Assembly (NCBI RefSeq): GCF_947495995.1
Contig: NZ_CANMAX010000002.1
Coordinates: 1 to 64,000, forward strand
Length of the DNA stretch: 64,000 nucleotides
Reading direction: 5' to 3'
From: an uncultured Tenacibaculum sp.
Lineage (GTDB): Bacteria; Bacteroidota; Bacteroidia; Flavobacteriales; Flavobacteriaceae
Positions 9,838-59,415 of this stretch are shown here, in pieces. The notes under the pieces were generated by a model that saw only the letters and a program-made list of their open reading frames with translations, was not told the origin of the DNA and did not search any database. Both the position numbers and the translations under genes were made by a program. Each line of letters opens with the position of its first letter. Position 1 is the stretch's first letter.

Positions 9838-10326
9838 TTATCTTCTAATAAAAATATTGGTATAATACCAAGTACCATTATTATTTTGCTTTGCAGTAAG
9901 ATGAAAATGTGTAAAATTTCCCTCAATATTTCTACGATGCCCGTCACTATTTATCCATCCGTTAACTAGCGATTGGGCATTGTTATATCCAAAAGCTACA
10001 TTTTCACCAATATTTCTAGCATCAGCATTTTGTTGTAAATAAGCACTACGACTACTAAAATTATCATGAGAAATATCTCCTTGACGAATCATATAATCAG
10101 TATGTTCATCTGTTTGAGTTTTAATAATATCTAAAACATCTAATCTAGCTAAACCTTTATTAGCTCTATAATCGTTTAATAGATTTAAAATTTGATTTTC
10201 GTAATCAATTTCGTTTGTTGGATTTTCTGTGTTCACATCAATATCAGTATCTACATTTTCTTCATTAGAAGAACAAGATAAAATAGTTAAACAACAAACT
10301 AAAAGTAGGGATTTTAATAATTTCAT
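9838..10326 (-). CDS. CAP-domain (SCP-like) lipoprotein
   Basis: A 162-residue lipoprotein: signal sequence with lipobox LTILSCSS (Cys18), an acidic linker, then a CAP domain from about residue 43. CAP motifs are present: ILNLLNDYRANKGL (helix 1), ISHDNFSSR (first His), NIGENVAFGY and WINSDGHRRNI (second His). The ending is shortened to YYTNIFIRR compared with secreted PR-1-like proteins. It is the last gene of a three-gene minus unit with DUF4268 and miaE, 26-base spacing. Role of bacterial CAP proteins is uncertain. Confidence 0.88.
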   Translation of the reverse strand: MKLLKSLLLVCCLTILSCSSNEENVDTDIDVNTENPTNEIDYENQILNLLNDYRANKGLARLDVLDIIKTQTDEHTDYMIRQGDISHDNFSSRSAYLQQNADARNIGENVAFGYNNAQSLVNGWINSDGHRRNIEGNFTHFHLTAKQNNNGTWYYTNIFIRR

Positions 10327-10352
10327 TTTAGGGGAATGAATGGGATTAATAA

Positions 10353-10790
10353 TTATATGGCTTGTTTTATAAAATCTTCATATTCATAATAAAACAGTTC
10401 AAACTGCGTCATAGTTTCTACAAAAAACTCATAACAATCACGCCAAGTGTTTTTATTATGAATACTAAATTTCTTCTCATGTAAAACGTATATTCTTTGA
10501 ATATATTTTCCGCTGTCCAATTGAAAAGCATTATCGAAAATTACTTCTGGTAGATATTCAGTTTCTAAAATTTTCTTTAAAGAAACTAACTGATCGTATA
10601 ACAATTCGTTAGCAATTTCCTCAGGATGTTCAAAGTCTAAACAAACAAAAGCCTTTTTTCTATCCGCTTGAAATTTAAAAGAAAAACCTTTGATTTTAGT
10701 GTTGTACAACAACCATTTTCTAGGGAAAGACTTTCCGAAGCTTGTCCAGAATTCTTTTCTGATTTTTGCAGATTCTTCTTTACTAAACAT
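10353..10790 (-). CDS. DUF4268 domain protein
   Basis: A 145-residue soluble protein made of one DUF4268 domain: FWTSFGKSFPRKWLLYNTKI near the N-terminus, then FKFQADRKKAFVCLDFEH, and an aromatic C-terminus rich in F/Y/E. No catalytic motif is obvious. The DUF4268 fold is nuclease-like and is sometimes found next to DNA-processing genes, but here it stands between MiaE and a CAP lipoprotein. Conserved in flavobacteria; function unknown. Confidence 0.82.
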   Translation of the reverse strand: MFSKEESAKIRKEFWTSFGKSFPRKWLLYNTKIKGFSFKFQADRKKAFVCLDFEHPEEIANELLYDQLVSLKKILETEYLPEVIFDNAFQLDSGKYIQRIYVLHEKKFSIHNKNTWRDCYEFFVETMTQFELFYYEYEDFIKQAI

Positions 10791-10815
10791 GAATTATCAG
10801 TTATTGATTATTGAA

Positions 10816-11397
10816 TTATCCGTGAACTTTAGCCGAAGTACCTCTATTTTTCATCATTAGAGCTTCAAAAGTTAATAAATCATTCCATTTTTGATCAACA
10901 ATCTCTCTATCCATATATTTTCTAGCATAACCTAAAAATAAAGTATAGTGATTTGCTTCAGAAATCATTAAATCTTTATAAAACTCAGATAACTGTTCAT
11001 CAGACATATTATCAGAAAAAACCTTAAAACGTTCGCAACTTCTAGCTTCGATTAAAGCAGCAACAAGTAAACGATGTACTAAAGCTTCTGTTCTGTCTTG
11101 AGTTTTAGGAAAGAAACCTTGTAGTTTTAAAGCATAATCGTTCTTAGTAGCCTGACCTAAAACCATTCCACGATCTACCATTAAATTATGTACCATTCTA
11201 AAATGTTCCATTTCCTCAATGGCTATATCACTCATGTCTTTTACAAGCTCAGTTTCTTCTGAGTAATTGATAATGATTGATACGGCATTACTAGCTGCTT
11301 TTTGTTCAGCAAAAGCATGATCAGTTAATAATTGTTGTAATCCGTTTTTAGCAACATCTACCCAAGAAGTTTCTGTATCAAAGTGTAATCCAAGCAT
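10816..11397 (-). CDS. miaE: tRNA-(ms2io6A)-hydroxylase-like di-iron protein
   Basis: A 193-residue ferritin-like four-helix protein of the MiaE family, which hydroxylates the isopentenyl side chain of ms2i6A37 in tRNA. Iron-ligand candidates lie in ordered motifs: DHAFAEQKAA (helix 1), EEMEHFRMVH (helix 2), ALIEARSCERF (helix 3) and SEANHYTLF (helix 4), giving Glu and ExxH pairs as expected. It is the first gene of the three-gene minus unit. The preceding spacer 11398-11556 holds the divergent promoter of the macroglobulin gene. Confidence 0.9.
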   Translation of the reverse strand: MLGLHFDTETSWVDVAKNGLQQLLTDHAFAEQKAASNAVSIIINYSEETELVKDMSDIAIEEMEHFRMVHNLMVDRGMVLGQATKNDYALKLQGFFPKTQDRTEALVHRLLVAALIEARSCERFKVFSDNMSDEQLSEFYKDLMISEANHYTLFLGYARKYMDREIVDQKWNDLLTFEALMMKNRGTSAKVHG

Positions 11398-47314: not shown

Positions 47315-47329
47315 TTAAACAATACATTT

Positions 47330-47545
47330 GCCGAAAATTTTGGTTTTTCTTCAACTTTCAATTGGAGAAAATTAAAAGGGAATTCGGTGTAAAACCGAAG
47401 CTGTTCCCGCAACTGTAAGCTATAAAGCTTGTAACTAATTACTTTTTAACCACTGCGAAAGCGGGAAGGTAAGTTACAAGACGCAAGCCAGGAGACCTGC
47501 CAAATTTTTATTTGATAACAAACCTTCGGGATAAAGGTTTTTACA
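47330..47545 (+). ncRNA. Cobalamin riboswitch
   Basis: The B12 box GCCAGGAGACCTGCC is at 47487-47501. The core upstream is canonical: AAAGGGAA, CGGTG, ACCGAAGCTG, then CCCGCAACTGTAA (47377-47419). Peripheral stems include GTAAGTTACAAG pairing with the CTTGTAAC strand. A hairpin with AACCTT/AAGGTT and a short T-run (47521-47542) lies just before the ribosome binding site AGGGG. Binding of adenosyl- or aquocobalamin should shut off the btuB-like gene at 47556. Confidence 0.95.
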
Positions 47546-57055: not shown

Positions 57056-57259
57056 TTACATTGTTTCTTCACAAGTATAAACGGCTGGACAAGCAATATA
57101 CTTCTGGCAATATAAAGGACCAGTAACTCTAGCTGCACAATCGCATCCACATTTACTTAAGTCTACATCTTTACCGAAAGAGATTCCACCGTTAACTTCT
57201 TTTTGTTGTGCTTTACTTAAAGTACTAGCACCTTGAATACTTAAAAAACTTTTTTTCAT
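57056..57259 (-). CDS. Double-glycine-leader six-cysteine peptide 1
   Basis: A 67-residue precursor-like peptide. The leader MKKSFLSIQGASTLSKAQQK ends EVNGG at residue 25, a double-glycine cleavage motif as in bacteriocin and other Bacteroidota secreted-peptide leaders (with the LSKxxQKxxxGG pattern). The 42-residue core has six Cys in CxCxC-x9-C-x5-C-x5-C: KCGCDCAARVTGP, then YC, then IACPAVYTC. A paralogue with the same Cys spacing lies 310 bases upstream on the same strand. No peptidase-transporter or modification enzyme is adjacent. Possible toxin, signal or RiPP; activity unknown. Confidence 0.8.
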   Translation of the reverse strand: MKKSFLSIQGASTLSKAQQKEVNGGISFGKDVDLSKCGCDCAARVTGPLYCQKYIACPAVYTCEETM

Positions 57260-57568
57260 TATTCCTGAGGACTTTTAAAAAATTAATAATTTGATTAAAT
57301 GTGTGCTAAAATTATTTAAATTTTATATCTAAATGAAATAATATTTGTTAAAATTGTAATTTAATTTATTGTTTTTAATAATAAATTAAAACTATTTGGT
57401 TTTAATGAAATGTTTTTAAAATTGTTTATGATAATTATTGAAATATTGAGAATAATTGTAAATGAAGTATATGGAACTTGAAATAAGTTCAAATGTTTTG
57501 AATAGTTGCAAATTGATAATAGTCTTTAAAAGCTATTATCAATTTGTTTATTGTAAATAAAATAAAGT
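57260..57568. other. AT-rich spacer between the peptide genes
   Basis: About 310 very AT-rich bases without an ORF. A hairpin with AAATTGATAATAG (57510-57522) and CTATTATCAATTT (57533-57545) can end the second peptide gene. The size suggests that each peptide has its own promoter, but I cannot point to a -7 box. Confidence 0.5.
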
Positions 57569-57760
57569 TTAACTCGATTCATTACAAGTATATACTTGTG
57601 GGCAAGCAATTACTTGTTCGCAGAATTTCGGACCAGTAACACCACCAGCACAATCACATCCGCAATATTTAGAATCAATAAGAAGAATTCCTCCTGTTAA
57701 TGTTTTTTGATCTTTTTTGGTAAGCACAGAGACACCATTGACATTCAATAAGTTTTTCAT
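57569..57760 (-). CDS. Double-glycine-leader six-cysteine peptide 2
   Basis: A 63-residue paralogue of peptide 1. The leader MKNLLNVNGVSVLTKKDQKT ends LTGG (residue 24), then a 39-residue core with identical Cys spacing: YCGCDCAGGVTGP, then FC, then IACPQVYTC. Conserved positions are CGCDCA, VTGP, IACP and VYTC; the residues before the first Cys differ freely. That pattern indicates selection on a folded or modified core. Probably exported by a C39-peptidase ABC transporter encoded elsewhere. Confidence 0.8.
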   Translation of the reverse strand: MKNLLNVNGVSVLTKKDQKTLTGGILLIDSKYCGCDCAGGVTGPKFCEQVIACPQVYTCNESS

Positions 57761-58739: not shown

Positions 58740-59258
58740 TTATTTCTTTTCTTCTGTGCTAGCTTCCTCTTCAGTTTCTTTCTTCGCGTCTTCAGTCACC
58801 ATTTTTGCATCTTCAACTTTAACTTGTTCGTGGTCTTTAACCATTTTGTTATGCTCGTCTAACATTTCTTGGTGTTGCTTCTTTAAATCTTCGTGATCTT
58901 TAACCATTTGTTCTAAAGAAATTTCACCAGTTAAATGTTTTTCTTCTAAAGCTTTGTGCTCTGCGATTAATTTTTTATGCTTCTCAACTAAAGAAGTATG
59001 AGAACCTAAAATAGCTGCATGATTTTTTTCATTAACCACATGAAGAGAATCGTTTTCTAAATCTTTGTGTGAAGCAACCATAGCACTATGATCATCATTC
59101 ATAGTTGCATGTTTTTTCTCTATTTCTTCATGAGTTTTCATCATTACTTCATGCTCTGCAACTAAAGCTTTATGCTCTGGACTTTCAGCAGGGTTTTTCT
59201 TACAAGAAATAGCAACTAATGCTAAAGAAACTAAGATTGATTTTGATAATAATTTCAT
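58740..59258 (-). CDS. Histidine-ladder coiled-coil lipoprotein
   Basis: A 172-residue lipoprotein (lipobox LVAISCKK, Cys19) that is one long helix. Histidines recur every seven residues: 29, 36, 43, 50, 57, 64; then, after a two-residue shift, 73, 80, 87, 94, 101, 108, 122, 129, 136, 143. That is sixteen His in one heptad position, within units such as MVKDHEDLKKQHQEMLDEH. An acidic tail follows. In a dimer or trimer the His would line one stripe, suited to metal binding or pH sensing, or Lpp-like spacing. Function unknown. Divergent from grpE. Confidence 0.83.
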   Translation of the reverse strand: MKLLSKSILVSLALVAISCKKNPAESPEHKALVAEHEVMMKTHEEIEKKHATMNDDHSAMVASHKDLENDSLHVVNEKNHAAILGSHTSLVEKHKKLIAEHKALEEKHLTGEISLEQMVKDHEDLKKQHQEMLDEHNKMVKDHEQVKVEDAKMVTEDAKKETEEEASTEEKK

Positions 59259-59352: not shown

Positions 59353-59361
59353 TTACAGTGT

Positions 59362-59376
59362 TGGCAGTATTCTTGC
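59362..59376 (+). promoter_or_regulatory. Sigma-54-type promoter of grpE-dnaJ
   Basis: TGGCAG-N5-TTGC matches the -24/-12 consensus (TGGCAC-N5-TTGC) with GG and GC exactly 12 apart. The start site would be near 59388, 28 bases before the grpE ATG. It does not look like the usual TAnnTTTG promoter of this group. Confidence 0.65.
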
Positions 59377-59415
59377 TTGTAGTTAGCAAACTAAAAATTA
59401 AAGAAGCGATTTACA

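Follow-up and report, generated by a model that had tools for sequence, protein, structure and literature searches.

A Pair of Six-Cysteine Peptide Genes

The window (the whole 64,000-nucleotide stretch of Tenacibaculum DNA that was analyzed) contains two adjacent genes, A and B, encoding precursors of small, cysteine-rich peptides (Table 1). Their likeness is not due to chance, because a search of the window's own Tenacibaculum genome matched one to the other with E = 5e-17. Each has a leader of the form L[ST]KxxQKxxxGG, predicted to be 24–25 residues long and ending in a double glycine (GG), and a core with the pattern CxCxC-x9-C-x5-C-x5-C that includes the motifs VTGP and IACPxVYTC. A first-pass annotation had described two adjacent paralogs with these leader and cysteine patterns, and both open reading frames (ORFs) were found to be as it described them. 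The GG leader that it proposed also holds for A and B, but not as a constant of the family, from which 19 of 109 copies depart (see below).

Table 1. Positions of the Two Peptide Genes and of Their Predicted Leaders and Cores in the Window
Feature	Positions	Strand	Evidence
Six-Cys peptide precursor A, 67 aa	57056..57259	-	ORF; homologs in 20/149 relatives and 78 named loci
Predicted leader of A, MKKSFLSIQGASTLSKAQQKEVNGG; L(-12), Q(-7), V(-4), GG	57185..57259	-	Leader-position tally, family and exporter-adjacent peptides
Predicted mature core of A, 42 aa, six Cys	57059..57184	-	Invariant Cys pattern; AlphaFold2 core pLDDT 82
Six-Cys peptide precursor B, 63 aa, paralog of A	57569..57760	-	52% identity to A
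Predicted leader of B, MKNLLNVNGVSVLTKKDQKTLTGG	57689..57760	-	Leader-position tally as for A
Predicted mature core of B, 39 aa, six Cys	57572..57688	-	Invariant Cys pattern

None of the models in Pfam and NCBIfam reached its cut-off with the window pair. NF047798 (leader_Chryseo; cut-off 23.5 bits) scored 11.8 bits with A and did not match B; weak matches were obtained for 13 of 21 family members, the best from a member other than A and B having E = 1.8e-4. There was no match between TIGR04149 (cut-off 25 bits) and the window pair, and two Chryseobacterium members scored 18.5 and 17.8 bits. Searches of the PDB, by sequence profile and, using two AlphaFold2 models, by fold, gave no meaningful match; a single weak match to myelin transcription factor 1 (E = 0.15) was taken as chance. 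Application of AlphaFold2 to 103 cores yielded short strands and one helical turn, with a mean pLDDT of 82 and a pTM of 0.48, the latter suggesting only a local fold of the core.

A Family with an Almost Unchanged Core

A scan of genome contigs confirmed 168 relatives of the peptide, the best of which were returned as 78 loci, in Tenacibaculum, Kordia, Flavobacterium, Aquimarina, Dokdonia, Chryseobacterium and one Pedobacter. From these loci and the window (79 loci) we read 109 copies, with one to four copies per locus. The cysteine pattern, on whose conservation in related genomes the first-pass annotation had staked its proposal, was kept with exact spacing in 108 of the 109. Within the 27-residue core (consensus C-G-C-D/S-C-A/S-G-x-V-T-G-P-x-Y-C-x-x-Y-I-A/G-C-P-Q-V-Y-T-C), V9, G11 and all six cysteines were invariant in those 108 copies, and only two threonines were near-invariant in the 109-copy alignment. 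The six-cysteine family is therefore real and large, recurring across flavobacteria with an almost unchanged core.

Among 149 relatives of the window's genome, core-bearing homologs occurred in 20, spanning two genera of two families (the matches in G012 and G063 involved the leader only and were left out of this count). Because the peptide clusters in a few genera, an even sample of 351 genomes of the host family yielded only three with a strong match to the full-length core, i.e., the window's own genome, one other Tenacibaculum and one other genus. Searches of viral contigs and of plasmids found no member of the family, which makes a phage or plasmid passenger unlikely.

The cores are under strong purifying selection, as had been claimed from A and B: within genera, pN/pS was 0.17–0.23 for the core in every genus tested and 0.19–0.52 for the leader, the value for the core being the lower in four of five genera. 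As a control, the 149 relatives were also searched with the cores of two other GG peptides encoded in the window's genome. One had full-length relatives in just six Tenacibaculum genomes, the window's own included, and the other was also confined to the genus, save for one marginal match. Among peptides of its kind, the window family therefore stands out as unusually conserved.

Six-Cysteine Genes Lie Apart from Export Genes

Queries with PCAT (a C39-ABC exporter), HlyD and LuxR sequences gave zero matches in the 78 loci, which were of up to 20 kb, and none of these loci had an exporter within 10 kb of its six-cysteine genes. The absence of an exporter noted beside A and B thus extends to all 78. 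A query with the VKOR fusion described below gave one partial match only (29%, at L093). When neighboring genes at the 78 loci were clustered, no gene family was common to three or more genera except the peptide itself. Neither an immunity gene nor a cross-genus partner gene was found near the 78 loci, and no ORF with a CxxxCxxC (radical-SAM-type) motif occurred among the 468 ORFs within 3 kb.

The neighbors of the window pair, encoding MurA, a UvrD-like helicase, GrpE and DnaJ, were approximately 67–95% identical to those at named Tenacibaculum loci, and in the same order, which places the genome in Tenacibaculum. Tenacibaculum copies keep their position near murA and grpE, which points to vertical inheritance in that genus. 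Positions 58740–59258 of the window encode a predicted 172-aa lipoprotein made up of repeated H/E/K-rich units (KDHE, AEHK, KKH), for which Pfam gave no match.

A Probable Shared Exporter and Oxidase Elsewhere in the Genome

Three strong C39 matches were found in the window's own genome. On contig C3, one of them heads a 728-aa PCAT with an intact C39 motif, accompanied by an HlyD-type adaptor and by a 543-aa protein joining a C39-like domain, VKOR and thioredoxin, all within 7.3 kb; a LuxR-type regulator gene adjoins the cluster. The first-pass annotation had postulated a shared C39 exporter away from the peptide genes and had suggested looking for HlyD genes as well, and both are present here. 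By inspection, the fusion retains the CxxC motifs of VKOR (CLLC) and thioredoxin (CGHC), and its C39-like part is without the DCGPTC and HY residues that are both present in the PCAT. The Pfam C39 alignment to the fusion starts only at profile position 20.

Around the C3 machinery are about 20 other cysteine-rich GG peptides, whose leaders resemble those of A and B and have the form MKKSILNIGKALNKxEQKxINGG, and at least 13 further GG peptides are dispersed over the genome, this census being a minimum. The array that surrounds the PCAT, HlyD and fusion genes (G000:C3:83300-92500, L036) encodes cores that are highly diverse. The second C39 locus, on contig C1, is an NHLP/LanB-like system (G000:C1:667001-687000, L037), with two ABC exporters, HlyD, an outer-membrane channel, LanB-like proteins and an NHLP-like precursor of 109 aa whose last residues are VVGG. 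The third C39 match is a stand-alone protein of 174 aa.

The fusion was present in 20/20 peptide-positive genomes, versus 9/129 peptide-negative relatives (Fisher p ~3e-18, not corrected for phylogeny), and a PCAT of at least 60% identity in 20/20 versus 12/129 (Fisher p ~7e-17, likewise uncorrected). Within Tenacibaculum (with G000-G090 taken as the genus), the corresponding figures for the fusion were 14/14 and 9/77 (p ~8e-11, again without correction for phylogeny). A further 20 of 20 named peptide-bearing genomes, from seven genera, had both proteins, such that all 40 of the peptide-bearing genomes tested carry the C39-ABC exporter and the fusion. This co-occurrence may partly reflect shared ancestry. 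Machinery without the peptide, as seen in some genomes, is expected if the machinery serves other peptides.

Leaders Follow the Type of the Local Exporter

Published determinants of C39 recognition are hydrophobic residues at positions -12, -7 and -4 and a GG, GA or GS end (PMC10885120). Leu or Ile at -12, Leu, Ile or Val at -4 and Gly at -2 were present in 109/109 copies. Position -7 is Gln in nearly all copies outside Chryseobacterium, and hence mostly not hydrophobic there. In Tenacibaculum, Gln occupies this position in 17/19 copies and in 18/20 exporter-adjacent peptides, and in Chryseobacterium it is Leu in 29/29 copies and in the four exporter-adjacent peptides read. All 29 of the Chryseobacterium leaders were closer to the peptides of the local exporter than to the six-cysteine leaders of Tenacibaculum. 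The family in Chryseobacterium has a leader of the local exporter's type on an unchanged core, and the leader ties the peptide to the machinery more directly than co-occurrence does.

The leader ends in GG in 83 copies, GS in 4 and GA in 3 (90/109). In the other 19, all from Aquimarina or some Flavobacterium, G(-2) is followed by Gln, Glu, Lys or Met, endings that are not known as C39 sites; other peptides of the same genomes retain GG, GS or GA, and a PCAT approximately 70–75% identical to that of the window's genome is present. Cleavage after GG is therefore not universal in the family: these 19 copies misfit simple GG cleavage and may be cut differently or stay uncut.

Proposed Export and Oxidation in Trans

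We consider it likely, with a probability of about 0.7, that the six-cysteine peptides are exported in trans and oxidized by shared machinery. From gene anatomy and co-occurrence, we infer the following sequence of export, cleavage, disulfide formation and activity. The precursor would be made in the cytosol with its leader of 24–25 residues, which would be recognized in trans by the conserved PCAT of contig C3 and the HlyD adaptor. It would then be cut after GG, and a core of 39–42 residues would exit the cell. The VKOR-thioredoxin fusion, whose gene is next to that of the exporter, would join the six cysteines in three disulfides; the C39-like domain at the N terminus of the fusion, having lost its catalytic residues, may dock the leader or the exporter. 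By analogy with the bacteroidetocins, the peptide could serve, once exported, as a bacteriocin-like antagonist, the role that we tentatively favor over the others. It is also conceivable, although we think it rather unlikely, that the catalytically dead C39-like domain binds the leaders that the exporter also binds, so that disulfide formation is leader-guided on many unrelated cysteine-rich peptides, the six-cysteine family being a conserved, order-wide effector, either antagonist or signal, delivered from orphan genes via a shared "export and oxidize" hub.

The main alternative, in which a peptide leaving by the same route is a conserved, pheromone-like extracellular signal sensed by its producer, seems somewhat unlikely. 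The conservation of the core across genera under purifying selection, unlike that of the two genus-confined GG cores, would suit a signal, as would the stable place beside murA and grpE in Tenacibaculum, the LuxR-type regulator gene adjoining the exporter cluster and the failure to find an immunity gene nearby. However, no receptor gene travels with the peptide, a single genome can carry as many as four tandem copies whose cores differ, and signals usually diverge between species, thus keeping their specificity.

The cysteines might instead be cross-linked by a radical-SAM or lanthionine enzyme encoded elsewhere in the genome, making the peptide a modified RiPP. Some members do match TIGR04149 (rSAM-modified RiPP) and RumC below threshold, and the genome has the separate NHLP/LanB-like locus. 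Nevertheless, this is improbable: the TIGR04149 scores are under the cut-off, the 468 ORFs near the 78 loci include no modification enzyme, the core, with only two near-invariant threonines, does not offer its six cysteines enough Ser/Thr to form lanthionines, and the genes co-occur with the disulfide-forming fusion instead. With no modification enzyme near any copy, the RiPP option entertained by the first-pass annotation found no support. It is very improbable that the product is a cytosolic metal-binding (zinc or metallothionein-like) mini-protein retaining a leader-like N terminus. Such a protein would account for the CxCxC motif, for the loss of Gly(-1) in 19/109 copies and for matches to zinc-finger proteins, which were at chance level, but not for exporter-recognition positions that are kept in 109/109 leaders and follow the local exporter type, nor for the complete co-occurrence with exporter and oxidase in the genomes tested.

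Comparison with Known Systems

The bacteroidetocins are proposed class IIf bacteriocins of Bacteroidales, in which toxin activity requires the peptide, a thiol oxidoreductase and a PCAT, and there is no evident immunity gene (PMC6671954). The six-cysteine family resembles them in its small, cysteine-containing GG-leader peptide, C39-ABC exporter, thiol oxidoreductase and Bacteroidota hosts, and in the absence of a recognizable immunity gene. However, bacteroidetocins have four cysteines, leaders of 15–16 aa and one compact four-gene locus, whereas the present peptides have six cysteines, leaders of up to 25 aa and orphan genes, their exporter and oxidase being encoded elsewhere and common to dozens of further peptides. 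In view of these differences in the number of cysteines, the length of the leader and the arrangement of the locus, we do not class the family with the bacteroidetocins.

NF047798, annotated as "bacteriocin-like protein," also describes a short GG leader of Flavobacteriales peptides, but covers the Chryseobacterium-type leader only, and the six-cysteine core lies outside its description. TIGR04149 (GG_sam_targ_CFB), a model of precursors of rSAM-modified RiPPs, has a similar leader ending in GG, but the six-cysteine members score under its cut-off where tested and have no radical-SAM enzyme nearby. Class I and II lanthipeptides are characterized by a precursor-adjacent Lan enzyme and by conserved Ser/Thr; here, apart from the peptide itself, no neighbor family recurred across genera, and the core has only two near-invariant threonines. 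With the double-glycine class II bacteriocins and microcins that PCATs export, the family has in common the anatomy of its leader, a probable reliance on a C39 exporter and a core that is disulfide-rich or small. The cores of those bacteriocins and microcins usually diverge rapidly and are accompanied by genes for export and immunity, whereas the six-cysteine core is conserved across genera and neither type of gene is adjacent to it. Most bacteriocin-like peptides vary between strains; a 27-residue core almost fixed across seven genera therefore probably has one conserved job.

The kind to which the window pair probably belongs, that of GG-leader, disulfide-rich, PCAT-exported peptides, is known. 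We found no papers on an orphan six-cysteine family, or on its dependence on a C39-like/VKOR/thioredoxin fusion, in the open-access literature searched, and both the conserved family and its apparent dependence on the fusion appear new to the libraries covered. This fits the term "undescribed" in the first-pass annotation, as does the lack of a Pfam or NCBIfam match above cut-off and of a related structure. Cluster-based genome mining will easily overlook the six-cysteine genes, given their distance from the export machinery. Their tight dependence on the C39 exporter and fusion would provide a testable route to disulfide-rich secreted peptides in flavobacteria, and a way to find many more of them.

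Candidate Regulatory Elements

The motif TTG-N17-23-TAnnTTTG occurs upstream of 14/29 Chryseobacterium copies, versus ~2% of the window background; it is absent from the window pair and was rejected as a shared flavobacterial promoter. An Rfam scan of the window gave no match at the peptide pair. In Kordia, RF02914 (DUF805b cis-regulatory RNA) or close look-alikes precede 10 of 21 six-cysteine genes, at 19–25 nt from the start codon. Sites of this type include L073:9944-9978, 10304-10338, 10771-10806 and 11240-11275, L067:9483-9518 and, in the window's own genome, G000:C3:339555-339586(-). When 30 DUF805b sites from Kordia and the window's genome were read, about 10 were ahead of short GG-type peptide genes, and the remainder ahead of genes for other proteins that are small or secreted. 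This RNA may be connected with secreted-peptide genes, a possibility that seems to merit investigation.

In the window, a candidate sigma-54 type -24/-12 promoter (TTGGCAGTATTCTTGCT, 59361-59377), recognized by eye only, precedes grpE-dnaJ, with an ATGTCAT/ATGACAT palindrome just upstream. A cobalamin riboswitch lies on the + strand at 47324-47518, ~1.9 kb ahead of a gene for a DUF5074 secreted protein (49436).
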